Shown piece by piece: positions 390 to 45,006 of a stretch of 64,000 nt of DNA. Under the pieces are notes generated by a model, which saw nothing but the letters and a program-made list of their open reading frames with translations, was not told the origin of the DNA and did not search any database. Both the position numbers and the translations under genes were made by a program. Origin of the DNA: Sutcliffiella horikoshii DSM 8719 (GTDB taxonomy: Bacteria > Bacillota > Bacilli > Bacillales > Bacillaceae_I); contig LQXN01000065.1 of assembly GCA_001648575.1 (NCBI GenBank), positions 1 through 64,000 on the forward strand, in the 5' to 3' direction. Each line of letters starts with the position of its first letter. The stretch's first letter is position 1.

Positions 390-581
390 GAATAGCGGAT
401 ATATCGAAAAGTTAGCGGATAAAATGGAAAAGTCGCGGATATATCGGAAAGTTAGCGGATAAAACGGAAAAGTCGCGGATATATCGGAAAGTTAGCGGAT
501 AAAACAAAAAAGTCGCGGATATATCGAAAAGTTAGCGGATAAAACAAAAAAGTCGCGGATAAAACCGAAACTGCCCGGATC
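390..581. repeat. Phased 20-bp array 1 (core GCGGATAWAWC)
   Basis: GCGGAT starts at 395, 415, 435, 455, 475, 495, 515, 535 and 555, exactly every 20 bases, with a degenerate copy (CCGGAT) at 575. Two spacer types alternate at first (ATATATCGAAAAGTTA and AAAACGGAAAAGTC). A 20-base period is not a multiple of three, so the pattern is not codon-driven. The array fills the gap after the rRNA terminator. The same core word recurs at 44917-45006. Confidence 0.9.
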
Positions 582-628
582 CATAGCAAAGATCTAGTGC
601 TATTAATCCCATTGTCTGGACGATAAAG

Positions 629-735
629 CCCCATTTAATTAGAAATCTTCATCAAAAAAGCCTTCATCGGTGTTATGAAACCCTCGTTAAGTAGAAATCC
701 CCGCCAAGAAAGTCTTCATCGATATCACATGAATC
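629..735. repeat. Diverged direct repeat, ~52 bp period
   Basis: Two imperfect copies follow each other with a shift of ~52 bases. Each carries TAGAAATC, CAA..AAAG and CTTCATCG followed by an ATGAA block, and a third partial copy starts at ~733 (CCCCATTT). No reading frame or RNA family is recognised. The rest of 582-874 shows nothing else beyond a weak promoter-like TATACT at 820-825. Confidence 0.5.
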
Positions 736-874
736 CCCATTTGCCAAAAAACCAAAAATACTTCCCTTCAAAAGCTCTTCCTCACCAATTTCTCTCTAGA
801 TTTTCCAGTCTCAATCCTCTATACTAAATAAACTATACATAAAGCGTACGTTAAAAAGGGGGAAACCAAAATAC

Positions 875-1411
875 ATGAAACGTATTATGGTGATTGGGGC
901 GTCAGCAGGAGTAGGGAAATCCACGTTTGCCACCAGGCTTGGGAAGGCTCTAGACATAAAAGTGTTTCATCTTGATTCGTTCTTTTGGAAATCAGGCTGG
1001 GTGGAGGCGAGCATGGAGGAGTTCACGAATGCGCAACACCAAATGATAAAGAACAACAATTACTGGATCGTAGAAGGAAACTATACAGCTACTTTTGATA
1101 TAAGGGCTGAAAATGCGGATACGATTATTTATTTGGAGCTGCCGTTACGGGTTTGTTTGTATCGCGTGATAAAAAGATGGCTGACTAACCTTGGGAAAAG
1201 GCGTCCAGATCTTGGTGGAGAGTGTACCGAGAGGATGGAATGGAGTTTCCTCAAATTTATTATCACTACTTACCGGGCAAGGAAGAAAACGATGAAGAAG
1301 AGACTGGATTTCTACCAAGAGGACAAGCTGGTAGTAAGGTTGAAGGGGAAAAGAGCAATAGAATACTTTTTACAACAGATAGAAAGATCAAAGAGTAGCT
1401 CGGCTTCTTAA
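875..1411 (+). CDS. P-loop NTPase, topology-modulation / adenylate-kinase-like protein
   Basis: A 178-residue soluble protein. It has a Walker A motif GASAGVGKST at residues ~8-17 and an early HLDSFFWKSGW block typical of the small Bacillus P-loop proteins annotated as DNA topology modulation protein (FlaR-like). These resemble nucleotide kinases, and the true substrate is unknown. The start has an AAAAAGGGGG SD with good spacing. The gene stands alone between the array-rich region and the convergent sigY operon. The C-terminal codons overlap the 5' arm of the terminator hairpin. The family assignment is from motif and length only. Confidence 0.85.
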   Translation: MKRIMVIGASAGVGKSTFATRLGKALDIKVFHLDSFFWKSGWVEASMEEFTNAQHQMIKNNNYWIVEGNYTATFDIRAENADTIIYLELPLRVCLYRVIKRWLTNLGKRRPDLGGECTERMEWSFLKFIITTYRARKKTMKKRLDFYQEDKLVVRLKGKRAIEYFLQQIERSKSSSAS

Positions 1412-1437
1412 ATGAAGAACCGTGGCTACTCTTTTTT
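1392..1437 (+). terminator. Intrinsic terminator overlapping a stop codon
   Basis: AGAGTAGC..CGGCTTCT pairs with AGAA.CCG..GCTACTCT and is followed by TTTTTT. The 5' arm lies inside the last codons of the upstream P-loop gene. Confidence 0.8.
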
Positions 1438-1541
1438 AAGGGTGTTTTCGGAACTTAGTTGCTTTTACGCCAACCGTTATCGTGGCCACTTTCGTACTCT
1501 CTAACATGCACTTCTAATTCTCACTCGTATATTTTAATAGG

Positions 1542-2318
1542 TTAAAACTGTTCAAATCTTTTAAAGTTGAAGGTTGCCAATACTACAAAGAGTACAGAGA
1601 GGCAGATTGTGACTATAATGACGAGTAAACCATTTTCGGCTAGCTCGCCTTGCATAAGGATGGAGGTTGCGTGTTCACGAAGCTTTGCTGGGCTCCATTC
1701 CATGAATTTCGTGAAGAGTCCGGTTGCTACGGTCAGGATTGCAAGGAATGAGACGCTGACGCCTGCAATGCCTCCTGAGGTGCGGAGCAAGGTCCCTGTT
1801 AAGATGGTGACAGAGATAATCAACACGACCCATAAACTATAGACGCCAAGGCTTGCTAGCATGGTTTTCCAGTCTACTTTGTTGAATAGAAGGTTAGTAT
1901 AGTACCAGGTCAGTAAATAGCTCAGGAGCAGGGATGTTAGGGCAATGACGAGTTGAGCTGCCCATTTGCTTAGGATGTACTGCGCCGGTTGGACGGGCCG
2001 GGCCATGACGAGTGTCAGAGTGCCATTTTGGCGTTCAATGGAGATGGCACTCATGGTTGCTAGCACGAAAAGGAGTGTGGCAATCGTGCCGTACTGGCCA
2101 AGGGTGCCGGCAAGCACTTCTTCTCCCGATGGTATCGGGATTTCAATGACAGTCCCTTCCGGAAGGTTTCCTGCGGATTCGATGATTTGCGGCATATAGT
2201 AGCTTGTGATTGGCTGGGATATGCCGATGATCATAAGGACGATAGGCAGCCAGATCCATTTTCCGTTGCGCATGCTTTCTTGCATTTCTTTTATAAAGAG
2301 GGTTGTGAAATTCTTCAT
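1542..2318 (-). CDS. yxlG: ABC-2 type permease, SigY operon (YxlG)
   Basis: A 258-residue integral membrane protein with about six hydrophobic segments and an extracytoplasmic loop after the first. The MSAISIERQNGTL-type block is typical of ABC-2 permeases. Its start overlaps the ATPase gene by four bases, so the two are translationally coupled and probably form one exporter. It is the last gene of a six-gene set matching B. subtilis sigY-yxlC-yxlD-yxlE-yxlF-yxlG in order and size. The exported substrate is unknown. No clear terminator was seen in 1438-1541. Confidence 0.88.
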   Translation of the reverse strand: MKNFTTLFIKEMQESMRNGKWIWLPIVLMIIGISQPITSYYMPQIIESAGNLPEGTVIEIPIPSGEEVLAGTLGQYGTIATLLFVLATMSAISIERQNGTLTLVMARPVQPAQYILSKWAAQLVIALTSLLLSYLLTWYYTNLLFNKVDWKTMLASLGVYSLWVVLIISVTILTGTLLRTSGGIAGVSVSFLAILTVATGLFTKFMEWSPAKLREHATSILMQGELAENGLLVIIVTICLSVLFVVLATFNFKRFEQF

Positions 2319-3211
2319 TGGTTCATCACCTTCATATATGCGTCCTCTAGTGAATCTTGCACTTTTTCATAGTGTGAGAGAGTGAGTTGTTTTTCCAGCA
2401 GCTTCTTTACTATAGCGTTGCTTTGGAAATTTGTTTCGTTTACAAAAAGTGTGGCTGTTTGATTGTCAATATAGTCGATGGATTCTATGCTTGGGATGCC
2501 ATCTAATTGTCCTTTAAGCGACTCTTCTGTCTTGATTTTTACAGCAGAGGTTGTATGCTCGGACCTGAGTGAATCTAGGCTTCCGTCCCATTTGATCTCG
2601 CCGTTCTTAAGCATGATCACTGTATCGCAGACCTGCTCGGCATCGTGAAGGACATGGGTGGAAAAGAGAATAGTCATGCGGGTTTTTAGCTGGGTCAGGA
2701 TTTTCAGGACATCGCGTCTGCCGTCTGGGTCAAGGGCAGAGACTGGTTCATCTAAAATCAGTAATTCCGGATCGTGCAAAAGGGCTTGAGCCAGGCCAAG
2801 GCGCTGTTTCATACCGCCGGAGAAACCACCTATCCGTTTATTCTTTACTTCTGTCAGGCTGACGAACTCCAGAGTTTCTTCTATCTTGGCTTTGAGTTGG
2901 TCTTTAGTAAGGTGTGAGAGTTTGCCGGCGAATTGTAAATATTCTTTCGGTGTCATCCAGGCAAAAAAGGATGGATGTTGCGGCAGGAAGCCAATCTGGT
3001 GGCGGAAGTCCTTTTCTGTGCTACCTGCAAAACGGATTGTGCCTGATGTCGGGGTAAGCAGTCCGGCAAGCATCTGAAGGGAGGTCGTCTTCCCGGCGCC
3101 GTTAGGGCCAAGAAGCGCGACACAACTTCCTTTTTCTATTTGAAAAGAAATGCCTTTGACGGCTTGGTGCTGCTTGAATATTTTTGTTAAGTTGTTGATT
3201 TCAAGTAACAT
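2315..3211 (-). CDS. yxlF: ABC transporter ATP-binding protein, SigY operon (YxlF)
   Basis: A 298-residue ATPase with Walker A GPNGAGKTT (~residues 36-44), signature FSGGMKQRLGLAQAL and Walker B LLILDEP followed by a switch-region STHVL. The C-terminal ~80 residues are the extra domain common in drug or antibiotic exporter ATPases. I place the start at ATG 3211, because AAGGAG sits eight bases upstream; an in-frame GTG at 3220 would overlap that SD. It partners the permease encoded immediately downstream. By synteny it is YxlF of the sigY operon. Confidence 0.9.
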   Translation of the reverse strand: MLLEINNLTKIFKQHQAVKGISFQIEKGSCVALLGPNGAGKTTSLQMLAGLLTPTSGTIRFAGSTEKDFRHQIGFLPQHPSFFAWMTPKEYLQFAGKLSHLTKDQLKAKIEETLEFVSLTEVKNKRIGGFSGGMKQRLGLAQALLHDPELLILDEPVSALDPDGRRDVLKILTQLKTRMTILFSTHVLHDAEQVCDTVIMLKNGEIKWDGSLDSLRSEHTTSAVKIKTEESLKGQLDGIPSIESIDYIDNQTATLFVNETNFQSNAIVKKLLEKQLTLSHYEKVQDSLEDAYMKVMNQ

Positions 3212-3223
3212 TACGGTCACTCC

Positions 3224-3415
3224 TTAGTCGCTTTTTCGTCCGATGACAAAGTATAGAATCGGTCCGATTGTGGTGATGAAAAGAATGATGAGGGCCCAGA
3301 CCCATTTCGGTCCATTTGTATTTTCCTGCTTTACTAGGCTTATGAATGCTGCAATCACTAATATCAATTGCAAGACAATCAGTGGTGCGGCAAGTGACCA
3401 GTTGATGTTTTCCAT
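3224..3415 (-). CDS. yxlE: Small membrane protein with PLD nuclease N-terminal-like fold (YxlE)
   Basis: A 63-residue protein with two transmembrane segments (about residues 8-28 and 38-58) and the GPKWVWALIILF...GPILYFVIGRK pattern of the PLDc_N family. Its ATG overlaps the end of the preceding gene. In B. subtilis, YxlE with YxlC and YxlD is reported to act negatively on SigY. That role is carried over by position and size, not shown here. Confidence 0.85.
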   Translation of the reverse strand: MENINWSLAAPLIVLQLILVIAAFISLVKQENTNGPKWVWALIILFITTIGPILYFVIGRKSD

Positions 3416-3636
3416 TACATTCCTCTCCTTTTTTGCTTTTTCTTATGTGGATAGAACACGAATATCAGATAGAACATGGAAGGCAGCGGGAAGTGGACCA
3501 ATCCCCAGATCCCCCAGAACCAGGCATAGCTTCCTTTTTTCTTCGCATCAATGAATAACAGGATGCTTTGGGTCAGCAGCACAGGGACGAGCCATGGAAG
3601 AATGGTGTATAGTTGCTCCAGTTTTTCCGGCGTCAT
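3415..3636 (-). CDS. yxlD: Small membrane protein of the SigY operon (YxlD)
   Basis: A 73-residue protein with two hydrophobic helices (about 15-30 and 40-62) and a basic C-terminus (HKKKQKRR). It overlaps the preceding gene by four bases and the next by one. Order and size match B. subtilis yxlD, which belongs to the SigY control cluster. No motif indicates a biochemical activity. Confidence 0.82.
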   Translation of the reverse strand: MTPEKLEQLYTILPWLVPVLLTQSILLFIDAKKKGSYAWFWGIWGLVHFPLPSMFYLIFVFYPHKKKQKRRGM

Positions 3637-3968
3637 GATAGGATGCTTCCTTCCTGTTTGGCTTTGCTCTTTTGCAAGATATAAAAGATGATTGGAGCCA
3701 GGACAAGTGCGGACACTTGAATGATTAAAAAGATTTTAGGCGCCTGGAATATTACGGTGGTAAACACTGCTAAAAGGATGAGCGCGGTGATGACAAACAT
3801 GCCGAGCTCTTTTTGGAACGCTTTGCGTTTGGCAGCTTTGGCCAAATGGAGTTGTTCCTGCATTTGATGAGCTGTTGGGATAGGAGGTGACCCTAATTGA
3901 TCTAGTTGTTTCCAGTCCTGGTTGAGCCTAGTTAGAAGGTCTTTGTCTCTTTTATTTTGTTTATTCAT
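3633..3968 (-). CDS. yxlC: SigY-operon membrane protein, candidate anti-sigma factor (YxlC)
   Basis: A 111-residue protein with a charged cytoplasmic N-terminal half (~residues 1-50) and two C-terminal transmembrane helices. This layout is common for small anti-sigma factors. It starts eight bases inside the end of sigY, so its synthesis is coupled to the sigma factor. In B. subtilis the yxlC gene product negatively regulates SigY. Here the assignment rests on synteny and topology. Confidence 0.85.
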   Translation of the reverse strand: MNKQNKRDKDLLTRLNQDWKQLDQLGSPPIPTAHQMQEQLHLAKAAKRKAFQKELGMFVITALILLAVFTTVIFQAPKIFLIIQVSALVLAPIIFYILQKSKAKQEGSILS

Positions 3969-4500
3969 CTTGGTCCCACTCCTTTCTTAGCGTTTTTATT
4001 CCATTGTGGACCCTTGATTTAACCGTCCCTGTTCTGATGCCCAGCATCGTTCCGATTTCGTCATAGGTGTAGCCGTAATAGTGCCTCAGTAAGATCGGGG
4101 TTCTTGTTTCTGGTGGCAGCTGATTGAAATCCGAGAACGTGTCGCTCCACTCCATGCCGTTCGACTCAGAACGGAAGGTAAGCTGTCGGGACAGTACATG
4201 AAAGAGCCGGGTGGCCTTCTTTTTCTCGCGCTCTTTTTTCCGGATGGAGTCGATATAGAGCCTGGAGGCAATCGAGATCATCCAGGTGGAAAATTTCCCT
4301 TCTCCTTTGAAAGAAGTGAGGTTGGTGTAGCATTTCATCATCGTCTCCTGGGCCAGGTCCCTGCTTGTTTCTTCATTCAGTGTAAGTTTGAGCAAGTATT
4401 TATATAGGAAAGTATAGTGCTTCTGAAACAACTGCGTGAAGGCATCGTCGTCGCCTGTTATTGCTTCTTGTATAAGATAAATGTCTTCTTCCTGCTCCAA
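3961..4500 (-). CDS. sigY: ECF sigma factor SigY
   Basis: An extracytoplasmic-function sigma factor of 179 residues. Region 2 contains DAFTQLFQKHY and LTSFKGEGKFSTWMISIASR. Region 4 has LPPETRTPILLRHYYGYTYDEIG and TGTVKSRVHNGIKTLRKE. I use TTG 4500 (LEQEED...) as start. It has GGAAAGGAGG six bases upstream and gives the B. subtilis length. The longer ATG at 4551 lies at or upstream of the expected transcription start of the SigY promoter at 4554-4579. It heads the sigY-yxlCDEFG operon and probably transcribes itself. Confidence 0.92.
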   Translation of the reverse strand: MEQEEDIYLIQEAITGDDDAFTQLFQKHYTFLYKYLLKLTLNEETSRDLAQETMMKCYTNLTSFKGEGKFSTWMISIASRLYIDSIRKKEREKKKATRLFHVLSRQLTFRSESNGMEWSDTFSDFNQLPPETRTPILLRHYYGYTYDEIGTMLGIRTGTVKSRVHNGIKTLRKEWDQDE

Positions 4501-4553
4501 ATCGATGCCTCCTTTCCTTATGATATCGTGCCTTTTTGTCTGTTCAACCATAA

Positions 4554-4579
4554 GACGCCGTGAATTAATAAAGCGTTCA
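4554..4579 (-). promoter_or_regulatory. Autoregulatory SigY-type promoter
   Basis: Read on the minus strand, TGAACGC is followed after 15 bases by CGTC, matching the TGAACGC / CGTC elements known for the B. subtilis sigY promoter. It lies directly upstream of sigY and sets the transcript start near 4547. Confidence 0.75.
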
Positions 4580-4753
4580 TTTTAATTTAAATATTTTTTA
4601 GTGGGATCCATCTAACTTAACTTTCAATGTGACAAAAAGCTCTTTTCCCAAAGATTGTTGCTATTCGCATGTAAAAGATTGCATATAAACTCTTAAATTT
4701 GCAAGTGGCATTCCTAGCACAACAGAGAAAACAGCCCGACAATAAGTAATAAT

Positions 4754-4799
4754 ACGAATGATTAGAATATACGAAAACGCAACAAGGTATACGAAAACA
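4754..4799. repeat. Mini repeat TACGAAAAC, 20-bp step
   Basis: TACGAAAAC occurs at 4770 and 4790 (20 bases apart), with a weaker TACGAATG at 4754. The CGAAAACA word reappears at 50874 and 50895 (21 apart). It may be a short member of the phased-array class. Otherwise 4580-4810 holds no gene that I can support. Confidence 0.4.
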
Positions 4800-4810
4800 A
4801 CCAAACAAAA

Positions 4811-4842
4811 AAGAAAAACCCCCTCTTTAACAGAAGGGGTTC
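4811..4842 (-). terminator. Terminator of hsp20
   Basis: On the minus strand AACCCC pairs with GGGGGTT and is followed by TTTTCTTTTTT. It lies ~27 bases after the hsp20 stop. Confidence 0.7.
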
Positions 4843-4868
4843 TGGATGGAAAAAGCTTAACTTATATA

Positions 4869-5363
4869 TTATTCGACGTCGATGTTGAAATTCCTAGAGG
4901 GGTCTGACCCCTTTTCGCTTTTTTCTTTCCCCCTTCCACCTCTCACATAAATCTGCCGCTTGGTGTCGCTTGTGATGTGGCGGTGGAGTTGGATGAGGAG
5001 GAGGCCGTTTTCGTAGGTGGCGTCGACTTTGTCGTCGCGGACCGGGAATGGGAGTTCGAAGGTGCGTTGGAAGTCGCCTTGTGCGATTCCTTCTTCGATG
5101 AGTTCATATCCTTGGATGTTGAGGTTGATTTGGCCTTTTACTTCAAGTTGCTGGGGGCGAACGAAGAGTTGGACCTGCTCTGGATTAACCAGGCCAGGCA
5201 GGCACATGACGCATAACAACTCATTTTCTTTCTTATAGAGGTTGGTTTGGGTTTGCATGTTCTCAAAGTATGGCTCAAACCCGTTCCAGAATTCATCCCC
5301 AAAGAACTGATCCCACTGTTTGCGCCAGTCTCCCATATTTTTAAACTGATTAAAGGGCATCAT
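4869..5363 (-). CDS. Hsp20 / alpha-crystallin family small heat-shock protein
   Basis: A 164-residue protein. The N-terminal arm is rich in aromatic residues (WRKQWDQFFGDEFW). The alpha-crystallin domain covers roughly residues 45-140, with the family-typical NGLLLIQLHRH strand near its end. Family members hold unfolded proteins and form oligomers. The C-terminal tail is unusual: KGSDPS is encoded by a perfect REP-like palindrome (4898-4912) that also occurs in intergenic DNA of this window, so the tail appears to have been extended or altered by repeat insertion. It is a single-gene unit with its own terminator. Confidence 0.88.
   Translation of the reverse strand: MMPFNQFKNMGDWRKQWDQFFGDEFWNGFEPYFENMQTQTNLYKKENELLCVMCLPGLVNPEQVQLFVRPQQLEVKGQINLNIQGYELIEEGIAQGDFQRTFELPFPVRDDKVDATYENGLLLIQLHRHITSDTKRQIYVRGGRGKEKSEKGSDPSRNFNIDVE
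4898..4912. repeat. REP-like palindrome inside hsp20
   Basis: AGGGGTCTGACCCCT is a perfect inverted repeat about a single central base. It falls within the last ~20 codons of hsp20. Identical or near-identical palindromes lie at 6904, 6945, 24599, 41409 and 41444. Confidence 0.85.
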
Positions 5364-5516
5364 CGGCCATCACGCTTCCTTTCCTGCTTGCGTTCTCTTT
5401 GCCAATAGAATATGCAGAAGTGGGCGGGTAAGTGCCTAGGATCGAGCCTGACCGGGTAAGTTCGCTTCACATTTCTATGTCGAAAATCAATTAAGCACAA
5501 AAAGTAAAAAGCATGG

Positions 5517-5522
5517 TATATT
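5517..5522 (+). promoter_or_regulatory. Possible -10 box for leader peptide and MFS gene
   Basis: TATATT lies seven bases before an SD (GGAGGTG at 5530-5536), so a transcript from here would begin almost at the SD of the small ORF. The -35 is weak (TTAAGC about 20 bases upstream). Confidence 0.35.
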
Positions 5523-5543
5523 TTAAATCGGAGGTGTTTAAAC

Positions 5544-5606
5544 ATGTCAAAAAACTATACATGGATTTTAAACGAAAACACAGAGGGAACAAACATTAGC
5601 AAGTAA
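5544..5606 (+). CDS. Candidate 20-residue leader peptide upstream of MFS exporter
   Basis: ATG at 5544 has an excellent GGAGGTG SD and opens a 20-codon frame ending at TAA 5604-5606, reading MSKNYTWILN then ENTEGTNISK. The end of the frame (AGCAAGTAACGAC, 5598-5610) can pair with GTTGTTGCTTGCT (5627-5639), directly before the SD of the MFS gene. That layout suits translation-coupled attenuation of a drug exporter. Expression and function are inferred; the sequence shows only the SD, frame and hairpin. Confidence 0.5.
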   Translation: MSKNYTWILNENTEGTNISK

Positions 5607-5654
5607 CGACTGGCGTTTAAACCCGTGTTGTTGCTTGCTGGAAAGTAGGTAACA

Positions 5655-6902
5655 ATGAACACATTGGAAACAAAGCATGTGTATTACATCATGCATATGA
5701 TCATTTCGCTTGCGAGTTCGATTATGTTTACGACGTATGCGATCTATTATATCGAAGAATTGGGGCTGAATCCCCTTCAGTTAATTTTGATTGGAACGGC
5801 CATTGAATTGACCGTCATTATATTTGAAAGTGTAACGGGTGTCGTGGCAGACACCTACAGCAGAAGAATATCGATCATCATCGCGACATTCATCTTGGGG
5901 GCTGCCTTTATTTTTGAGGGGAGTATTCCTTATTTGACCGGAAGTACAGTAGTTGCAGGGGTGTTGTCTGCATTTGTCCTATTACTCATCGGCGAGTTTA
6001 TCCGTGGCATCGGGGAGACATTCCTCAGCGGTGCAGACCAGGCATGGCTGACAGATGAAGTGGGCGAAGGGAAGGTCGCTAAGATATTCGTCCGTACCAA
6101 TCAGCTGAGGCTTATCGCAAGCCTTGCAGGAATCATCATCAGTGTTGCCCTTGCAAGCATTGCATTGAATCTGCCCTTCATAGTGGGTGGGGTCCTTTAT
6201 ATTTTGCTCGGGATTTTCTTATGTGTATTCATGAAAGAAAAAAACTTCGAGAAGGTGGATGCGGCTAAGGAGAATCCTTGGAAGGCAATGTCCGCAACTT
6301 TTCTCTCCGGGGTTTCTTTTATAAAAAATAAACCAATACTTGTGATGCTGTTAGTGGTGACCGTATTTATGGGAGCGACCTCGGAAGGCTTCGATCGCCT
6401 TTGGGAGGCACATCTGCTGGAAGCCTTCACTTTTCCGAGCATTGGGCAGTTTGATGTGGTCGTTTGGTTCGGAATCATTCACTTCGTCGGTACATTAATC
6501 AGCATCGGTGCAATGGAAGGGTATCAGAAAAGGTTTGATGTGAACAAGCCAAAGGTAATCAGGTATAGTTTATTCTATTTCACAATCGCCCAAATCGTTT
6601 TCATGATTTTCTTTGCACTAACACCATATTTCTACTTATCCATCTTCTGTTTCTGGATGCTCGGCATCATCGGCTCCATCACGGCCCCGATGTACCAGGC
6701 ATGGCTGAACCAACAGCTTGAAAGCAAATCACGCGCCACCGTCCTATCCATCATGGGCCAGGGCAACGCGGTCGGCCAAGGACTAGGAGGCCCATTTGTA
6801 GGCGTCATCGCCACCAGATACTACATCAGAACCGCACTAGTACTAAGTGCGATCCTGCTGATACCAGCAGTGATTTTGTATGGTAAAGTTATAAAGAGGT
6901 GA
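5655..6902 (+). CDS. MFS transporter, DHA3-like (drug exporter type)
   Basis: A 415-residue membrane protein with about twelve hydrophobic segments. It carries the GVVADTYSRR loop between helices 2 and 3, the family motif A position. Overall it resembles DHA3-type exporters often annotated as macrolide or tetracycline efflux proteins. The substrate cannot be read from sequence. It follows a 20-codon ORF and a hairpin that may control its translation. A pair of REP-like palindromes begins two bases after its stop. Confidence 0.85.
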   Translation: MNTLETKHVYYIMHMIISLASSIMFTTYAIYYIEELGLNPLQLILIGTAIELTVIIFESVTGVVADTYSRRISIIIATFILGAAFIFEGSIPYLTGSTVVAGVLSAFVLLLIGEFIRGIGETFLSGADQAWLTDEVGEGKVAKIFVRTNQLRLIASLAGIIISVALASIALNLPFIVGGVLYILLGIFLCVFMKEKNFEKVDAAKENPWKAMSATFLSGVSFIKNKPILVMLLVVTVFMGATSEGFDRLWEAHLLEAFTFPSIGQFDVVVWFGIIHFVGTLISIGAMEGYQKRFDVNKPKVIRYSLFYFTIAQIVFMIFFALTPYFYLSIFCFWMLGIIGSITAPMYQAWLNQQLESKSRATVLSIMGQGNAVGQGLGGPFVGVIATRYYIRTALVLSAILLIPAVILYGKVIKR

Positions 6903-6903
6903 A

Positions 6904-6959
6904 GAGGGGTCTGACCCTCACTCCGTTAAAGCACTAAAACAAAAAGGGGTCTGACCCCT
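6904..6959. repeat. REP-like palindrome doublet
   Basis: GAGGGGTCTGACCCTC (6904-6919) and AGGGGTCTGACCCCT (6945-6959) flank a spacer TCACTCCGTTAAAGCACTAA. A reverse-complement version of the whole doublet, with a similar spacer, lies at 41409-41458. Confidence 0.85.
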
Positions 6960-7003
6960 CAAAAATAATATTATATCCATAACAACCAATAAGGGGATAT
7001 ATC

Positions 7004-7723: not shown

Positions 7724-7725
7724 GT

Positions 7726-7760
7726 AAAAAACGCTCAGATCATTCAATCTGAGCGTTTTT
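7726..7760. terminator. Bidirectional terminator
   Basis: AAAAACGCTCAGAT / ATCTGAGCGTTTTT is a perfect stem with a six-base loop between two convergent genes. A on one side and T on the other let it serve both strands. Confidence 0.9.
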
Positions 7761-7781
7761 CTTGTATTTCTTTTTAAAAGG

Positions 7782-9320: not shown

Positions 9321-9445
9321 GATTTTTTCACTCCTTTAATGATTTCTCATCACTTCTTTCATATTTAAAGTATTTGTTACAAAAACGGCAGCTATACCAT
9401 CCTAACACTTCTGGGACTTTAGTCCAAATAAATATACCTTAAGTG

Positions 9446-9475
9446 TTTACAGGTTGTAGTGGGTTCCATTAGAAT
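9446..9475 (+). promoter_or_regulatory. Sigma-A promoter for yebE-yebG
   Basis: TTTACA and TAGAAT are separated by 18 bases. The predicted start lies ~28 bases before the yebE initiation codon. Confidence 0.55.
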
Positions 9476-9510
9476 TAATTACTAGAATTGGCACCTAGGA
9501 GGCAGGTATC

Positions 9511-19485: not shown

Positions 19486-19578
19486 TACAATAACAGTGGG
19501 ATATGTCACAATAACTGCTGAAAAACTCACAATAACGCTGCTAAAACTCACAATGACATCATAGAAACTCACAATAAC
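19486..19578. repeat. Phased 21-bp array 2 (core ACTCACAATAAC)
   Basis: Copies of (C/T)ACAATAAC start at 19486, 19507, 19528, 19549 and 19570, exactly 21 bases apart, with variable 12-base spacers. It lies between purF and purM, inside the pur transcript. Its core is the reverse complement of array 4 at 35486. Confidence 0.9.
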
Positions 19579-22915: not shown

Positions 22916-23114
22916 TGAAGGGATTATTGGGGATTGTGACGGGATTTCGTTGAGATATGACGGGATTTTCTCTCGTTATGAAGGGATTTTTCCGACTTAT
23001 GACGGGATTACCTGATAGTTGTATCCTGTACCATTAATATAAAGTAGTCATTTTCATTCATAAGCAGGAATTTGCTGATTATATGACGGGATTAAGGATT
23101 CTTGTGACGGGATT
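22916..23114. repeat. Phased 21-bp array 3 (core TGACGGGATT)
   Basis: TGA(C/A)GGGATT starts at 22916, 22937, 22958, 22979, 23000, 23084 and 23105. All differences are multiples of 21 (the 23000-23084 gap is exactly four units), and a degenerate in-phase copy (AGCAGGAATT) sits at 23063. It fills the purH-purD gap within the pur operon. Keeping phase across the degenerate stretch suggests selection on spacing or an ancient uniform array. Confidence 0.92.
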
Positions 23115-35482: not shown

Positions 35483-35620
35483 GGGATTGTGACATTTGAG
35501 GAGGTTATTGTAACTTTTTCAGGAGGTATTGTGACATTTGCGGAGGTTATTGTGACTTTTTTAAAAGGTATTGTGACTTTCTCCAACGTTATTGTGATTT
35601 TTTCCAAAAGGCACAATCCC
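35483..35620. repeat. Phased 21-bp array 4 (core TTATTGTGACTTTT)
   Basis: ATTGT(G/A)A starts at 35486, 35507, 35528, 35549, 35570 and 35591, exactly every 21 bases. Read on the other strand the core is AAAAGTCACAATAAC, nearly the word of array 2 (19486-19578). The array is closed by GGGATTGTG (35484) and its reverse complement CACAATCCC (35612). It fills the camS-pruA gap after the terminator. Confidence 0.9.
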
Positions 35621-35710: not shown

Positions 35711-35719
35711 GAGAATTGT

Positions 35720-35735: not shown

Positions 35736-35756
35736 ATGCAAAGGAGGGCGAATGTA

Positions 35757-37304: not shown

Positions 37305-37320
37305 TTTTTATATTAGAAGG

Positions 37321-37357
37321 AAGGCTGATGCCCACTTGGTGGGTGTCAGCTTTTTTG
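37321..37357 (+). terminator. Terminator after pruA
   Basis: GCTGATGCCCAC pairs with GTGGGTGTCAGC around TTG and is followed by TTTTTT. Confidence 0.9.
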
Positions 37358-37417
37358 CATTGTTGAGCTGGGGAGGGGGCTCGCTAAGGTGGGGGCGATT
37401 TTGGGAGGTGAAATTGG

Positions 37418-37536
37418 TTTTGGCACGAACTTGGGGCTGTTTGGCACGAATTTGCCTTGTTTCCGCACGAACTTGCCTTGTTTTGGCACGAACTCTCCCT
37501 GTTTCCGCATCAACTCATCACTTTTCCGGCACAACC
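37418..37536. repeat. Phased 21-bp array 5 (core GGCACGAACTTG)
   Basis: GCACGAA starts at 37423, 37444, 37465 and 37486 (21-base steps), followed by GCATCAAC at 37507 and GCACAAC at 37529. Spacers alternate between TTTTG and TTTCC types. The 21-base period also creates heptapeptide-repeat reading frames, judged non-coding for lack of SD and codon structure. The same word and the same terminal variant occur in array 6 at 59376. Confidence 0.9.
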
Positions 37537-37659
37537 CCCACCCCCCGTATAAAAATTCTCCTCAAAAACAATATTTAATTACTATTATTTTACATATTAC
37601 GCGAAATTATTTTCATACTAACAATGTGTACAAAAAAAGTTAGGTAAAGGAGACTGAAA

Positions 37660-38322: not shown

Positions 38323-38441
38323 ATTTTTTACAATAGGAATTATTAAACAAACGTTTGATTTAGCTTTCAAATAGCCACTGCGCCCCAAGGGATTCACGCA
38401 AAAAAACAGAATCAACTTTTCAAAAAACTATATAAATAAAA

Positions 38442-38480
38442 CAAAAAGAGAACCCGCAGGAAGATGCGGGTTCTCTTTTT
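38442..38480. terminator. Bidirectional terminator
   Basis: AAAAAGAGAACCCGCA pairs perfectly with TGCGGGTTCTCTTTTT across a six-base loop, between convergent genes. Confidence 0.93.
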
Positions 38481-38493
38481 GTATAATTCAATC

Positions 38494-39999
38494 TTATTCT
38501 TTATTCTGTTCTGTTTCCATTGTTTCTTCCATTTCCGTAAAGCCTTCACGTACTTTTTTACGTGGGAAGTTTGTAATATAACTTACAACGATTACGGCAA
38601 TCGTACTTAGGATGAATCCTGGAATGATCTCGTATAGGAATTCAGTTAGTGGTTCGCCGTTGATGGTGAATGGACCATATATCCATAATAGTACCGTGAA
38701 TGTACCCACCAGCATACCTGCAAGTGCACCCCAACGGTTCATTCGTTTCCAGTAGAGACTTAAGATTACCACTGGACCAAATGCTGCACCAAATCCTGCC
38801 CATGCGTTACCGACAAGGTTAAGGATGGTGTCGTTAGGTGTCAGGGAAAGTGAGATTGCAATGATTGCAACAATCAATACAGAGATACGACCGATAAGGA
38901 CAAGTTCTTTATCGGATGCTTCACGGCGTAAAAATGTTTTATAAAAGTCTTCTGTCAGTGCACTGGATGTTACAAGTAGCTGAGAAGAGATTGTGCTCAT
39001 GATAGCAGCCAGGATTGCTGCAAGTAAGAATCCGCTAATTAGTGGATGAAACAAGAATTGAGAGAAAACAATAAAGATTGTTTCTGAATCTGCCAATTCC
39101 ATTCCTGTACGGTTAACGTAGGCGATACCCACAAGTCCAGTAGCCATCGCACCGATGATGGAAACGATCATCCAGCTCATTCCGATACGGCGTGCAGCTT
39201 TAAAGTCACGGATGGACTTAATTGCCATAAATCGTACGATGATATGTGGCTGTCCAAAATAACCAAGTCCCCAAGCTAGTAAGGATATAATTCCAAGTAC
39301 GGTCGTCCCCCTAAAGAAATCAAGGTATGTTGGGTCAATGGAACGTACTTCATCAAGTGTCACTCCGACACCGCCTAGATCTGTAAAAGCAACAATTGGC
39401 ACTAGTACTAAGGCAAGAAGCATGATGACACCTTGTACAAAGTCAGTTAAACTAACTGCCAAGAATCCTCCAAACAATGTATAGGCTACTACTACACCAG
39501 CCGTTACAAACAATCCGATTTTGTAGTCTAATCCAAATGCACTGTCAAATAGTGTACCACCAGAAACTAAACCAGAGGATGTATAGAGAGTGAAGAATAT
39601 AATGATAACGATTGCTGATACAAAGCGTAAAATACGAGTTCCATCATAAAAGCGGTTTTCAAAGAAATCTGGGATTGTAATGGAGTCATTCGCAGTTTCC
39701 GTATAAATTCTTAAGCGAGGTGCTACGATTAAATAATTCACATATGCTCCTATTGTAAGACCGATTGCGATCCACATGCTGGATACACCACTTGCATACA
39801 TGGCACCAGGTAGACCCATCAGCATCCAACCACTCATATCAGATGCCCCGGCGGATAGTGCTGTTACCCCAGGTCCTAATTTACGACCGCCAAGCATATA
39901 GCCTGAAATATCGTCGGTAGATGTTTTATAGGCATATAAACCTATTCCTAGCATGACGATAAAATAAAGTGCTAGGGAAATAAATACTCCTGTTTCCAC
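38494..39999 (-). CDS. opuE: Sodium/proline symporter (OpuE/PutP)
   Basis: A ~501-residue Na+/solute symporter (SSS family) with about 13 membrane helices. [22 protein letters not shown] near the N-terminus is characteristic of PutP. The longest frame starts at TTG 40056 without an SD. GTG 39999 has AGGAG nine bases upstream and aligns with the start of known PutP/OpuE proteins, so I use it. Position just before gatCAB and a SigB-like promoter upstream both match B. subtilis opuE (osmotic proline uptake), although the pruA neighbour also suits a catabolic PutP. Confidence 0.9.
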
Positions 40000-40112
40000 A
40001 ATATCAACTCCTGAATTGTCTTTAATGTTGTTTAATACATCAGTGGAGATTAGCAATTTCGGCGCCCCAAATTGCTATCATAACGTTTACGAGTATTTAA
40101 GCTAACAAAGTA

Positions 40113-40138
40113 TTTCCCTTAATTCAAGCGATTGAAAC
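40113..40138 (-). promoter_or_regulatory. SigB-like promoter of opuE
   Basis: On the minus strand GTTTCA and GGGAAA are separated by 14 bases, close to the SigB pattern GTTTAA/GGGTAT. B. subtilis opuE has a SigB promoter in the same position. Confidence 0.5.
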
Positions 40139-40347
40139 CTTTTTCAATAGGAAGAAAATCACTGTACCCCTTGATACTATAGGAATACTTCCTTCTTGAC
40201 GATTAATTAAAGTAAAACTATTCGAAATTTTCAGATGTGTAATATCTTTGTAATAAGGGTGATTTTTTTATGGCTATTATTACTTGTACTCGAAAATATT
40301 TTATCCAATATTCCTAAAATATATTTTGTATTTAAAATTGGAGGGAT

Positions 40348-41259
40348 ATGATGGAATTCATCTATTTTAATGGACGTTTTATACCAGAATCGGAAGCGAA
40401 AATAAGTGTGAAAAATAAAACATTCAATTATGGATTGGGGGCGATTGAAGGGATTCGTGGATATTGGAATGAGGAGCAACAGGATCTATACCTTTTTCGT
40501 TTGGAGGACCATTATCAGCGTCTGCTCAATTCCTGCAAAGTGCTGTTCATCAATATTCCCTATACTGTAAAGGAGCTTTGTGAAATAACGGTGGAATTGA
40601 TGAAAATCAACAAGGTGAGAAGGGATATCTATATTCGCCCCATTGCTTTCATCAACCTTCCTTCCCTAAGACCGGATCTCTTCCAAACAGAATATGGATT
40701 GACGATTTTTATCGAGGAAACTTCTTATGTGGGGAAGCCTGCAGTGAATGCGATGATCTCCTCCTGGCTGCGGATAGAGAGCAGCACGATCCCACCGACC
40801 GTCAAGAGCATCGGCGGCTATCTCAACTCGGCTTTGGCTTATTCGCAGGCAATTGCCGAAGGGTCTGATGAAGCCATTTTCCTGACGAGGGAAGGGAATA
40901 TTAGTGAAGCGAGCACAAACAACTTATTCATGGTCAAGAATGGGGAACTCTTAACGCCACCACTCGCTGACAATATCCTGGAGGGGATCACAAGGGATAC
41001 CATCATGGAAATAGCGGAAAAGGAGTTTTCCTTGCAAGTCAATGAAATGAACATTCCCAGAGCCGAACTATACTTTGCCTCAGAAATCTTTTTTACCGGG
41101 ACCGCTGTGGAAGTCCTGCCAGTCATAAATGTGGACAAAAGAAGCATCGGAACGGGAAAAATCGGCCCCATCACCACCAACCTGCAACGGACATACCTCC
41201 AGATCGTGAAGGGGAACAACGGGCAATACACTCGGTGGTTAACGCCAGTATACGGGTAA
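40348..41259 (+). CDS. Branched-chain amino acid aminotransferase-like, class IV PLP enzyme
   Basis: A 303-residue fold-type IV aminotransferase, close in length to E. coli IlvE (type I) and shorter than the usual Bacillus YbgE/YwaA enzymes. NYGLGAIEGIRGYW is the family-typical N-terminal block. The PLP lysine lies in VKSIGGYLNSALA (~residue 155), and EASTNNLFMVKNG binds the cofactor. SD GGAGGG. It stands alone between opuE and gatC. Substrate could be branched-chain amino acids, D-amino acids or another class IV substrate. Confidence 0.85.
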   Translation: MMEFIYFNGRFIPESEAKISVKNKTFNYGLGAIEGIRGYWNEEQQDLYLFRLEDHYQRLLNSCKVLFINIPYTVKELCEITVELMKINKVRRDIYIRPIAFINLPSLRPDLFQTEYGLTIFIEETSYVGKPAVNAMISSWLRIESSTIPPTVKSIGGYLNSALAYSQAIAEGSDEAIFLTREGNISEASTNNLFMVKNGELLTPPLADNILEGITRDTIMEIAEKEFSLQVNEMNIPRAELYFASEIFFTGTAVEVLPVINVDKRSIGTGKIGPITTNLQRTYLQIVKGNNGQYTRWLTPVYG

Positions 41260-41286
41260 CAGAAAGGGAGTTGACGAAAACACGGA

Positions 41287-41380
41287 TATCGGGAAATTAT
41301 GAGATTTATCCTGAAAACTGGGGTGTTTATCCTGAAAACTTGAGATTCACCCTGAAAAAAAAAGAACTTATCAGGAAATC
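41287..41380. repeat. Phased ~20.5-bp array 7 (core TTATCCTGAAAAC)
   Basis: Related words begin at 41287 (TATCGGGAAA), 41307 (TATCCTGAAA), 41328 (TATCCTGAAA), 41348 (CACCCTGAAA) and 41369 (TATCAGGAAA), with steps of 20, 21, 20 and 21. It follows the aminotransferase gene. Confidence 0.8.
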
Positions 41381-41408
41381 GACAAGTTTTCCTTTATTTC
41401 GACACCAA

Positions 41409-41458
41409 AGGGGTCAGACCCCTCTTTAACACTCTAACGCACTGAGGGTCAGACCCCC
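41409..41458. repeat. REP-like palindrome doublet, inverted copy
   Basis: AGGGGTCAGACCCCT (41409-41423) and GAGGGTCAGACCCCC (41444-41458) with a spacer ~20 bases long. As a block this is the reverse complement of the doublet at 6904-6959, including much of the spacer. Confidence 0.85.
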
Positions 41459-41536
41459 CTTCACCCCAACACCGCACTAAATCACCGCCCCCCTCTTCAT
41501 CCAACTAAAGAAATCTCCCTCTTAACCCTCTCATGA

Positions 41537-41566
41537 TTGCTTGTGGGGGTTAAAGTTTAGTATGAT
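41537..41566 (+). promoter_or_regulatory. Likely promoter of gatCAB
   Basis: TTGCTT and TATGAT are separated by 18 bases, ~45 bases before gatC. Confidence 0.45.
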
Positions 41567-41609
41567 AGGTGTATTGTGCAAGTTCGAATTTTTGCGGAGG
41601 TGAAAGAGG

Positions 41610-41900
41610 ATGTCACGTATTTCGGAGGATCAGGTGAAGCATGTGGCGAATTTGGCTCGTCTTGCGATCAGCGATGACGAGGTGGTTATGTTCACAAGTC
41701 AATTGGATGCCATTATCTCATTCGCGGAGAAGCTGAATGAGTTGGATACAGAAGATGTTCAGCCAACTTCTCATGTGCTACATATGAAGAATGTCATGAG
41801 GGAAGATGTTGCGAAGGATGGGCTGCCGGTGGATGAGGTATTGAAGAACGCACCTGACCACAAAAATGGCCATATTCGCGTACCAAGCATTATTGAATAG
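41610..41900 (+). CDS. gatC: Asp-tRNA(Asn)/Glu-tRNA(Gln) amidotransferase subunit C
   Basis: A 96-residue subunit that stabilises GatA in the trimeric amidotransferase converting misacylated Glu-tRNA(Gln) and Asp-tRNA(Asn). [16 protein letters not shown] at the N-terminus and the LREDV-like [13 protein letters not shown] segment are typical. SD CGGAGGTG. First of three genes in the usual gatCAB order. Confidence 0.95.
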
Positions 41901-41922
41901 GAAGAAGTAAGGAGGGAACCTC

Positions 41923-43380
41923 ATGTCATTGTTTGATAAAAAGCTATCGGAATTACATAGCCTTTTACATAAAAAAGAAATCACTGTCACGGATCTAGTT
42001 GATACGTCATACAAGCGCATCGACGAAGTCGAAGACAAAGTACAAGCATTCCTAACACTTGATGAAGAGAATGCCCGTAAATACGCAAAAGTGCTCGACG
42101 AAGCGCTTGGCTTGGAAAAAGACCATGGCTTATTGTTCGGAATTCCGATCGGAGTTAAAGATAACATCGTAACAAAAGGTCTCCGTACAACAGCTGCAAG
42201 TAAAATTCTTGGTGACTTCAACCCGATTTACAATGCTACGGTTGTCGAAAAATTAAACCAAGCAGAAACGGTCACTATCGGGAAAATAAATATGGATGAG
42301 TTTGCAATGGGTTCTTCCAACGAAAACTCTGCATTTGCGGCTACAAAAAACCCTTGGGATCTTGACCGTGTACCAGGTGGATCCAGCGGTGCCTCGGCTG
42401 CGGCAGTCGCGGCAGGGGAAGTATTTTTCTCTCTGGGCACTGATACAGGCGGATCCATCCGCCAGCCTGCAGCATTCTGCGGGGTTGTCGGTCTCAAGCC
42501 AACCTATGGCCGTGTTTCCCGTTACGGCTTGATCGCCTTTGCATCATCCCTTGATCAAATCGGCCCGATCACGCGTACGGTAGAAGACAATGCCTATCTT
42601 TTACAAGCGATCTCTGGAATCGACCTGTTGGATTCAACGTCAGCAAATGCCGATGTGCCAGACTTCCTTTCCAGCCTGACTGGCGACGTTAAAGGCCTGA
42701 AGATCGGTGTTCCAAAAGAATACCTTGCGGAAGGTGTCAGCGAAGAAGTTCGTCAATCCGTCATGGACGCTTTAAAAGTCTTGGAAGGACTTGGCGCGAC
42801 ATGGGAAGAAGTTTCCCTGCCGCACTCCCAATATGCACTGGCGACTTATTATCTATTGTCTTCCTCGGAAGCATCTGCGAACCTTGCCCGGTTTGACGGT
42901 GTTCGTTATGGATATCGCACGGACAATGCGAAGAATCTTCTCGACATGTACAAGCAGACACGCAGCGAAGGATTCGGTCCTGAGGTGAAACGCCGTATCA
43001 TGCTTGGAACATATGCATTGAGCGCTGGTCATTATGATGCTTACTATATAAAAGCACAAAAAGTGCGCACGCTAATCAAGCAGGATTTTGAAGACGTTTT
43101 TGAAAAGTATGACGTGATCGTCGGGCCTACTACGCCGACGCCGGCATTCAAAATTGGCGAAAATACGAAGGATCCGTTAACGATGTATGCAAACGATATC
43201 TTGACAATACCAGTCAACCTTGCAGGAGTACCGGGAATCTCTGTACCTGCAGGCTTTGTAGACGGGCTGCCTGTCGGCTTGCAGATCATCGGGAACCATT
43301 TTGACGAGAGCACCATTTACCGCGTTGCCCATGCTTTTGAGCAAGCAACCGACCATCATAAACAAAAACCACAACTGTAA
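41923..43380 (+). CDS. gatA: Asp-tRNA(Asn)/Glu-tRNA(Gln) amidotransferase subunit A
   Basis: A 485-residue amidase-signature subunit that releases ammonia from glutamine. The Ser-cisSer-Lys triad is provided by GVKDN (Lys ~80), the [14 protein letters not shown] segment and [10 protein letters not shown]. It follows gatC by 22 bases with AAGGAGG, and precedes gatB by 17. Confidence 0.96.
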
Positions 43381-43397
43381 AGGGGTGAGAACAAGAC

Positions 43398-44828
43398 ATG
43401 AAATATGAAACGATCATTGGACTCGAGGTACACGTCGAGTTGAAAACTAAATCAAAAATCTTTTCGGCAAGTCCGAACAAATTCGGCTCGGAACCGAATA
43501 CAAACACGAGTGTCGTGGAACTTGGTTATCCAGGAACCCTGCCTGTACTTAACAAGCAGGCGGTCGAATATGCGATAAAGGCTGCGATGGCATTGAACTG
43601 TGAAGTCGCAACCGACACGAAATTTGACCGTAAAAACTATTTTTATCCAGACAACCCGAAGGCATACCAGATCTCTCAACATGACAAGCCGATCGGTGAA
43701 AACGGTTGGATCGATATCGAAGTGAACGGAGAAAAGAAACGCATCGGCATCACCCGCCTTCATCTTGAAGAGGATGCCGGAAAGCTAATGCACACAGGCG
43801 ACGGCTACTCCCTTGTCGACTATAACCGTCAGGGGACACCGCTTGTAGAAATCGTATCCGAGCCAGATATCCGAACGCCGGAAGAGGCATATGCCTATTT
43901 GGAAAAGTTGAAATCCATCATTCAATATACAGGTGTTTCCGATTGTAAAATGGAAGAGGGTTCCCTTCGTTGCGATGCGAACATCTCACTCCGTCCGGTC
44001 GGCCAGGAAAAATTCGGAACGAAAACAGAACTGAAAAACCTGAACAGCTTCAACTTTGTCCAAAAAGGATTGGAATATGAAGTGATTCGCCAAGAAGAAG
44101 TTCTTTCATCTGGAGGCGTCATCGAACAGGAAACCCGTCGCTATGATGAGGCGAAAAAAGAGACCACCCTGATGCGTGTAAAAGAAGGCTCCGACGATTA
44201 CCGTTACTTCCCGGAACCGGACCTTGTGGCACTTCACATCGATGACGACTGGAAGGAGCGCGTGCGTGCAGACATCCCGACGCTTCCGGACGAGCGCAAA
44301 AAGCGTTACGTGGAAGAACTGGGCTTGCCGCCATACGATGCCCAAGTCCTTACCATCACAAAAGAAATGTCCGATTTCTTTGATGGAACAATTGAGGCCG
44401 GTGCTGACGCAAAGCTTGCCTCCAACTGGCTGATGGGTGAGGTTTCCGCCTACTTGAACGCCGAAAACAAGGAATTAGAAGATACTTCTTTGACTCCTGA
44501 AGGTTTGGCGGGCATGATCAAGCTTCTTAAAGACGGCACCATTTCATCCAAAATTGCCAAAAAAGTCTTTAAAGAACTAATCGAAAACGGCGGTGACGCT
44601 GAAAAGATCGTCAAAGATAAAGGCCTTGTCCAAATTTCAGACGAAGGCACCCTTCGTAAAATGGTCGGCGAAACCTTGGATGCAAATCCAAAATCCGTCC
44701 AGGATTATAAAGAAGGAACAGAACGTGCCATCGGCTTCCTTGTCGGCCAGATCATGAAAGCCTCCAAAGGCCAGGCCAACCCGCAAATGGTGAACAAGAT
44801 TTTGATTGAAGAGATTAAGAAACGCTAA
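43398..44828 (+). CDS. gatB: Asp-tRNA(Asn)/Glu-tRNA(Gln) amidotransferase subunit B
   Basis: A 476-residue tRNA-binding and kinase-like subunit. It opens with [20 protein letters not shown], a GatB signature, and contains [14 protein letters not shown] and KLNSFNF-like segments. A C-terminal YqeY-like helical tail spans about residues 330-476. SD AAAGGGGTG. A terminator follows. Confidence 0.96.
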
Positions 44829-44844
44829 GTTATTAAAGATACAA

Positions 44845-44884
44845 GCAGGGCCCCGGCGTCTTATACGGGGTTCGGCTTTTTTTT
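44845..44884 (+). terminator. Terminator after gatB
   Basis: GGCCCCG can pair with CGGGGTT and is followed after TCGGC by TTTTTTT. The stem is shorter than at other sites. Confidence 0.65.
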
Positions 44885-44910
44885 ATGGCTGGGAGTGTAT
44901 CGGTTTGAGT

Positions 44911-45006
44911 CGAATAGCGGTTATCTACCTTGAATTCGCGGTTAAAAAGAAAACTTCGCGGATAAAATGAAAACTTCGCGGATAAATATAAAATCTCGCG
45001 GATAAC
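44911..45006. repeat. Phased 20-bp array 8 (core TTCGCGGATAAA)
   Basis: GCGG starts at 44917, 44938, 44958, 44978 and 44998 (steps 21, 20, 20, 20). The first copy is preceded by GTCGAATA, exactly as in array 1 (GTCGAATAGCGG at ~388). Arrays 1 and 8 therefore belong to one family 44 kb apart. It fills the gap between gatB and vanY. Confidence 0.88.

Follow-up and report, generated by a model that had tools for sequence, protein, structure and literature searches.

Phased intergenic arrays of short direct repeats, with words that differ between species at one locus, in Sutcliffiella horikoshii and its relatives

In plasmid iterons and centromere repeats, proteins bind cooperatively to direct repeats some two helical turns long, and LytTR operators are 9-bp direct repeats about 12 bp apart, normally two at a promoter. 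Minisatellites, or variable number tandem repeats (VNTRs), are made up of tandem units in variable number, clustered regularly interspaced short palindromic repeat (CRISPR) arrays have repeats of about 24–47 bp with unique spacers and cas genes, and repetitive extragenic palindromes (REPs) are palindromes of 20–40 bp with alternating orientation in bacterial interspersed mosaic elements (BIMEs). The arrays described here, from a 64,000-nucleotide stretch of Sutcliffiella horikoshii DSM 8719 (contig LQXN01000065.1, positions 1 to 64,000, hereafter the window), are runs of a short word repeated every 20 or 21 bp between genes. They are phased, fall into dispersed families, contrast conserved words with freer spacers, are biased to the 3' side of genes and carry different words at a fixed locus. 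They resemble REPs and BIMEs, as far as excerpts of two reports describe these, in being dispersed, intergenic, often clustered and built on species-specific words (PMC2817692, PMC3733652). In Bacillus, according to excerpts of a further report, RemA sites are poorly conserved periodic direct repeats upstream of promoters, AT-rich, with protections of 7 bp every 10 bp, and their DNA is thought to be wrapped on the ring protein (PMC8481266). Among the matches listed for the open-access literature, no description of such arrays was found.

In our estimate the chances are about even that these are cooperative arrays of protein-binding sites on one face of the DNA, mostly behind genes and likely acting as a boundary or roadblock; of this we infer the protein, its cooperativity and the boundary. 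The eight arrays of the window, examined with Tandem Repeats Finder and by inspection of the sequence, are all intergenic and lie at or within a few bases of where a first-pass annotation had placed them, with a pitch of 20 or 21 bp (about 20–21 bp for that at 41287):

390–581, plus strand: family A (word GCGGATAAA / GCGGATATA), about 9 units at 20-bp pitch; follows the 5S rRNA gene.
19486–19578, plus strand: family C (word CACAATAAC), 5 units at 21-bp pitch; in the purF–purM gap.
22916–23114, plus strand: family D (word TGACGGGATT / TGAAGGGATT), two groups of units in register at 21-bp pitch; in the purH–purD gap.
35483–35620, minus strand: family C inverted (GTTATTGTGAC on the plus strand), 6 units at 21-bp pitch; flanked by rocA and the terminator of the gene upstream.
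37418–37536, plus strand: family B (word TTTTGGCACGAACT), 5–6 units at 21-bp pitch; past the rocA terminator.
41287–41380, minus strand: family A (reading GGATAA; TTATCCTGAAAAC on the plus strand), weak, about 3–4 units at about 20–21 bp; in the ilvE–gatC gap.
44911–45006, plus strand: family A (word GCGGATAAA), 4–5 units at 20-bp pitch; flanked by the gatB terminator and a convergent gene.
59371–59468, plus strand: family B (word TTTTGGCACGAACT), 5 units at 21-bp pitch; after a T-box leader with its T-run and before the start of proS.

The contrast between word and spacer in orthologous arrays is the strongest evidence that the arrays are probably read, not merely generated. Behind rocA (L021, L023, L025 and L049), 17 of 411 sites are changed in the word (4.1%), 31 of 156 in the spacer (19.9%) and 81 of 388 in the flank (20.9%; p = 2e-8); the corresponding figures are 33/294, 61/234 and 53/292 for the gatB arrays of family A (p = 1e-5), and 21/165, 27/120 and 42/156 for the family C arrays upstream of rocA (p = 0.04), all being pairwise, non-independent counts over 4, 4 and 3 genomes, respectively. 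Of 62 arrays picked by lag identity alone, a set with orthologous loci in it and a few repeats that are probably coding, 48 have unequal columns at p < 0.05 and 38 at p < 0.01, and many show a constant block of about 11–14 bp next to a free block. Across 203 family B units, the columns of TTT[T/C]GGCACGAACT hold about 1–2 bits (0.8 at the first T) and those of the mid-spacer less than 0.2, the units having been picked by word, which favours the word columns.

At one fixed locus the word itself differs. Behind the gatB terminator, an array of pitch 20 occupies the same place in 8 of 12 loci (the window, L020–L029 and L049). The window and L020 have the word GCGGATAAA, L021, L022, L023 and L049 have GGACAATAAA, L024 has GGCTYATAAA and L025 has GGTTGATAAA; there is no array in L026 and L028 and other sequence in L027 and L029. 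From species to species the word changes in all units together. Upstream of rocA, family C is present in the window, L020–L025 and L049, a TTATCGATATTTTC-type array in L026 and a GTTAGATGAAATAG-type array in L029, and none was recognised in L027 and L028. Behind rocA, L024 is without the entire segment from the terminator to the promoter region, and no family B array was seen by eye in L022, L026, L027, L028 and L029. The first-pass annotation had proposed one generating or reading mechanism with interchangeable words; the constraint on reading and the exchange of words at a fixed locus bear this out in part, a single mechanism for all families being hypothetical.

These same data bear on the proposal that the arrays are neutral minisatellites, whose units are multiplied by slippage or unequal crossing-over and whose 20–21 bp is the unit size favoured by the process. 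An exact duplication of a 21-bp unit in L025 does show the way arrays grow, the number of units varies between species, and L232 contains higher-order repeats. At gatB, units are more alike within an array (0.60–0.80) than between orthologous arrays (0.45–0.58), and spacers are somewhat more alike within arrays (identity 0.40–0.50) than between them (0.33–0.37), for units chosen by word. Slippage, however, would copy the spacers along with the words, whereas spacer identity within an array is only 0.40–0.50 while the words are kept, and the whole unit, spacer included, is not homogeneous as in a minisatellite. It would also hardly concentrate the periods at 20/21, 40–42 and 52 bp, and we regard a neutral origin as unlikely.

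Phasing was assessed by a self-match scan of lags 10–59 in 42-base windows at thresholds of 27 and 29 matches. In the 64,000 nucleotides, at least 29 of 42 matches occur at lags 20, 21, 40 and 42, with one segment at 52 and no others, and the threshold of 27 adds a few further lags, each once or twice; the array at 41287–41380 is below the scan threshold. The genome is of 4.68 Mb, and its rocA product is 97–99% identical to those of seven S. horikoshii-group records, strain biET1 being the nearest. In a 464-kb sample of it, composed of the window and 20 stretches, intergenic lags are 20 (5), 21 (14), 40–42 (16) and 60–63 (9), every other lag occurring at most 3 times, and the lags in coding DNA are all multiples of 3 except one (56), some "coding" rows of lag 21 being arrays in spurious open reading frames (ORFs). 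After one local shuffle of the sequence, the threshold of 27 was reached by 2 segments and that of 29 by none.

The exact words are bound to this pitch. In the 464 kb, 14 of 15 copies of GGCACGAACT are in phase (0.6 copies expected in all), as are 22 of 22 copies of GCACGAACT (2.7 expected), 5 of 6 of TGACGGGATT (0.8), 9 of 14 of GCGGATAAA (3.7), 5 of 9 of CACAATAAC (5.1) and 2 of 3 of TTATCCTGAAAAC (0.0), and the out-of-phase copies are about as numerous as composition predicts. The words are mostly in phase, contrary to the equal frequency of in-phase and out-of-phase copies that would have refuted the initial reading. In-phase pairs number 19 for GCGGATA, 26 for GGCAYSAAC and 5 for TTATTGTRAC, against 0 in each reversed-pattern control. 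When gaps of 4–24 (pitch 14–34) were allowed, 13 of the 18 genomes from the taxonomic family, the present one included, yielded 97 pairs of GGCACGAACT, 96 of them at pitch 21 and one at 20 (reversed-pattern control, 0), and among the 203 family B units the distance between neighbours is 21 in 150 cases and 11, 15, 20, 22 or 33 once each. Since independently sequenced genomes have arrays at matching positions, an assembly artefact is unlikely.

In the 464-kb sample the words group as follows:

Family A: words GCGGATAAA, GGCTTATAAA and TTGGATAAA, pitch 20.
Family B: word TTTTGGCACGAACT, pitch 21.
Family C: word CACAATAAC, pitch 21.
Family D: word TGACGGGATT / TGAAGGGATT, pitch 21.
Family E: word AAAGTATTCAATAAA, pitch 21, one array.
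Family F: word TGTCCGAAG, pitch 21, weak, few arrays.

The initial count of about five families in the window, mostly unrelated words on a common pitch, holds in that last respect and comes down to about four, because the TTATCCTGA array looks like the GGATAA family inverted, TTATCC being the reverse complement of GGATAA. This array, at 41287, is tied to the GGATAA family through the one at C61:70632 (p = 0.007 and 0.003), the direct comparison giving p = 0.08. When consensus units, typed by hand from the outputs, were compared in all rotations and on both strands, 14 of 210 pairs reached p ≤ 0.05 against 10.5 expected, and 5 reached 0.01, all 5 inside the GGATAA-type group (A1, A2, A3, C61:70632, the inverted 41287 array and the G001 word TTCGCCGATAAA). 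As only these units stand out, one common ancestral word was rejected, and most family words are truly different. The suggested mini family at 4770 and 50874 (CGAAAACA) proved to be chance, with 24 copies in the 464 kb against 17.5 expected and 2 of 24 in phase (one pair). A sigma-54 promoter match of TTGGCACGAACTTGC was dropped, its spacing being one base short of the consensus and its second half not conserved, and counts from an "ATAAA core" search are not used as evidence because of a high control background (e.g. 155 + 57 against 111 + 50 in G002); use was made only of the sequences among its listed matches.

The arrays are dispersed over many contigs of the genome and recur in related genomes. 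Their density is very uneven, with 15 rows in 124 kb of C3 (1–124000; one array split), 2 in 240 kb of C5 (1–240000) and 5 in 100 kb of C61; the contigs were chosen among those with word hits, the hits themselves lying outside the fetched C5 and C61 stretches. Among 299 genomes of the order, two carry the word TTTACTCGTGA at exact pitch 21, fixed by the pattern, in 185 and 219 pairs (control, 0), and this word is absent from the 18 genomes of the window's taxonomic family; the same or a very similar word in named Peribacillus loci gave this type its label, Peribacillus type. Its arrays reach about 38 units (L213, behind a 6S RNA gene). Long arrays were also noted at L232 8223–9194 (higher-order repeats), L303 2214–2397 and L304 2481–2816, in the Peribacillus-type genome G196 and in G002 (GGTGATAAATAAA words). 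Of the suggestion that this is a new class of dispersed chromosomal element, the dispersal over contigs and relatives is borne out, one class by descent and mobility being hypothetical.

That transposase or gene conversion copies the arrays to new intergenic sites, as a mobile repeat of REP/BIME or miniature inverted-repeat transposable element type, is improbable. One word does recur at many loci of a genome, the segment behind the rocA terminator is present or absent as a whole, a TGTCGAAT-like leader precedes several family A arrays, and family B loci share more spacers than expected (5 where the null mean is 1.06, and 10 where it is 2.47), an excess not seen in the Peribacillus set. The positions, however, are common to several species while the word differs in place; no palindromic or dyad unit was seen, the units and profile being judged by reading, without a formal inverted-repeat search; and at the presence/absence site behind rocA no target duplication was recognised by eye, inverted ends having had no formal search. 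The Y1_Tnp domain of RAYT transposases (PF01797), found in 11 of 14 genomes including the present one, was not found in G196 and G285, the genomes with the most in-phase pairs seen, and an origin from RAYT and REPs was rejected on this ground.

Over 3.59 Mb, 112 intergenic arrays have fundamental periods of 20/21 bp (48), 40–42 bp (15) and 52 bp (17), every other period occurring at most 3 times; periods of 21, 42 and 52 bp are about 2, 4 and 5 turns of 10.5 bp. By set of sequences, the counts are:

Own genome: 23 arrays, 14 at 20/21 bp, 4 at 40–42 bp, 1 at 52 bp.
G007: 18 arrays, 8 at 20/21 bp, 2 at 40–42 bp, 6 at 52 bp.
Peribacillus type: 7 arrays, 5 at 20/21 bp, 1 at 40–42 bp, 0 at 52 bp; stretches partly placed on hits.
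Sutcliffiella syntenic: 26 arrays, 14 at 20/21 bp, 2 at 40–42 bp, 6 at 52 bp; orthologous loci.
Other syntenic genera: 24 arrays, 5 at 20/21 bp, 4 at 40–42 bp, 1 at 52 bp.
32 other families: 14 arrays, 2 at 20/21 bp, 2 at 40–42 bp, 3 at 52 bp.

Three G285 stretches and 5 of 20 G196 stretches were placed on known hits, and the G007 stretches were spaced by position. These counts indicate a concentration of periods that is strong in Sutcliffiella and weak elsewhere, the peak being much weaker outside Sutcliffiella and Peribacillus. The common pitch of 20–21 bp reported at first is not the only one: beside it stands a second kind of intergenic array with a pitch of 52 bp (about five turns) and several different words:

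Window 622–730: 52-bp array.
L021 2564–2757: 52-bp array.
L023 2328–2837: 52-bp array.
L026 19975–20462: 52-bp array.
L188 18279–18553: 52-bp array.
L189 4379–4641 and 10941–11203: two 52-bp arrays.
L195 19116–19599: 52-bp array.
L199 947–1360: 52-bp array.

Some 52-bp units hold a dyad, such as GTCTTCATA-N5-TATGAAGAC.

Another alternative is architectural DNA without a specific reader: phased A/T tracts would curve the helix, or would be a target for gyrase or a nucleoid protein, downstream of transcribed genes. The location behind genes agrees with it, and, in a wedge model, predicted curvature exceeds z = 2 in 15 of 24 arrays, with z of about 1.2 to 3.9 in those of 21 bp. Such a model, however, gives accumulated curvature for any 21-bp repeat, and the five family A arrays have z of -1.5, -1.3, -0.4, 0.0 and 1.1; curvature as a common denominator was rejected, the 20-bp arrays being mostly not curved. 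Bending alone would leave the exact conservation of GC-containing words unexplained, and it seems an improbable account as well.

Placement was examined in the genome under study, G007, the Peribacillus type and the syntenic loci, with 75 arrays placed, 4 unplaceable and 5 inside long ORFs dropped; the gene calls behind the lag, placement, terminator and orientation counts rest on ORF length, and probable coding repeats were kept (e.g. L217 19114, L187 18074 and L181 926). The placed arrays lie in 49 co-directional, 18 convergent and 8 divergent gaps, against 553, 150 and 236 of all 939 gaps of at least 150 bp, and divergent gaps are depleted in arrays (8/75 versus 236/939; p = 0.0045). Among the co-directional arrays, 38 of 49 are closer to the upstream stop, and in 31 of 49 a terminator-like hairpin lies between stop and array, as against 103 of 253 control gaps; by set, hairpins are found in 15 of 22 for the genome under study and G007 (split array counted once), 1 of 7 for the Peribacillus type and 14 of 19 for the syntenic loci. 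The arrays are oriented as the upstream gene in 53 of 73 cases (p = 0.00014; edges excluded, orthologous loci non-independent): in the genus set, 24/32 for family B, 6/7 for C, 2/2 for F and 0/2 for A2/A3; in the Peribacillus type, 14/20; and in the genome under study, 6/6 for A, 1/3 for D and 0/1 for F, its B (5/7) and C (2/3) arrays being left out for overlap with the genus set.

Several features of the individual loci may be added. In the array at 22916–23114 there is a gap, yet the flanking units are in register, with same-strand spacings of 21, 42, 63, 84, 105 and 126. The gene upstream of the array at 35483–35620 is the one after ligA, and several related genomes have an array with the same family C word at this place; the gene convergent with gatB has carboxypeptidase-like matches below curated cut-offs. 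At 59131–59468, a T-box leader and T-run are followed by the family B array and then proS, so that a read-through transcript would carry this array. The DNA before the array is G-rich and C-poor and that behind it C-rich at 330–400, 37360–37415, 44890–44920 and in relatives of the gatB gap, a pattern absent at some arrays, e.g. 22928 and C5 51882. On a larger scale, C1 of G007, which starts with a dnaA-like ORF, has seven family B loci, six on the plus strand at 0.24–1.26 Mb and one on the minus strand at 3.18 Mb, a layout that fits the leading strand, mostly of one arm near the origin. In G013 all family B loci are on the plus strand, also at 3.83–3.86 of 4.1 Mb.

An action at the RNA level, in a leader or a 3' untranslated region and for instance through a series of sites for an RNA-binding protein, would account for the orientation bias and for the location of the proS and pur arrays, where transcription is to be expected, but it is the least probable explanation considered, since orientation is not strict (20/73 opposite; window 35483 and 41287 inverted), many Sutcliffiella arrays lie beyond a terminator, and helical quantisation is meaningless in RNA. 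At Rfam gathering scores, no known RNA was found over the window arrays or the arrays in L213, L302, L189 and L199.

In the protein-binding model that we favour, each array would be a run of sites for a sequence-specific DNA-binding protein. A word of 10–14 bp every two helical turns would set the sites on one face of the DNA, with cooperative binding along or around it; the whole-turn pitch, the conserved word, the freer spacer and the occurrence of both orientations point to proteins side by side on that face. Arrays would gain and lose whole units through duplication, while selection would hold word and pitch and the 6–10-bp spacer would drift. Separate word families might correspond to different, or differently specific, readers with the same kind of job, namely a nucleoprotein boundary or roadblock that would separate a gene from the next promoter. 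The boundary is likely because the majority of arrays are found in the gap downstream of a gene, and those of Sutcliffiella frequently stand right after its terminator.

A number of observations weigh against this model. No reader protein was found for the arrays, and different words at one locus in close species are odd for a normal regulon. The word changes by 11–13% in families A and C, far from strict conservation and in the non-independent counts given above; 14 of the 62 lag-picked arrays have no significant contrast between word and spacer; and the exact family F word CCGAAGTTT is not enriched (3 copies in the 464 kb against 3.7 expected, 0 in phase). As to the boundary, the purF–purM and purH–purD arrays presumably lie inside an operon, judging by gene order, and the proS array lies in a leader. 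Without the syntenic loci the depletion of divergent gaps is not significant (7/46, p = 0.16). The enrichment of terminators is modest in the genome under study and G007 (15/22 against 103/253, p = 0.02) and suggestive at most, because the stretches compared differ in length, and the co-directional Peribacillus-type arrays, with a hairpin in 1 of 7, mostly come right after the stop codon.

Should the arrays indeed bind proteins, they would constitute an unnoticed layer of chromosome organisation in common soil bacteria, with several independent codes per cell, and the contrast of word and spacer together with array-free sister loci makes binding directly testable. A wider view, which we put forward tentatively and hold to be rather doubtful, is that some Bacillaceae possess a general system of helically quantised intergenic arrays, of two turns (20/21 bp) or five (52 bp), in which the pitch would be fixed by the architecture and the word exchangeable; fast-evolving DNA-binding readers would have the words replaced array-wide as they change, giving a lineage-specific address code for gene boundaries.

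Compared with the known systems, the arrays differ from REPs and BIMEs in being direct repeats at a fixed helical pitch, and from CRISPR arrays in having a word of 10–14 bp and spacers of 6–10 bp, cas genes having been left unsearched. LytTR operators are similar in word length (9 bp) and in pitch (about 21 bp), but here 3 to about 38 repeats stand in gaps behind genes; among 14 genomes with 0–5 LytTR genes each, no link with array abundance was seen. Unlike plasmid iterons and centromere repeats, the arrays occupy many chromosomal loci with several words per genome, and unlike minisatellites and VNTRs they combine a fixed pitch with the contrast of word and spacer. Compared with the RemA sites, as far as the excerpts describe them, the arrays have much stricter words and a pitch of 20–21 bp, and RemA may serve as a model of how array DNA could be wrapped, not as a match. 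The system as a whole, if it is one, may be likened to eukaryotic satellite DNA and its binding proteins.

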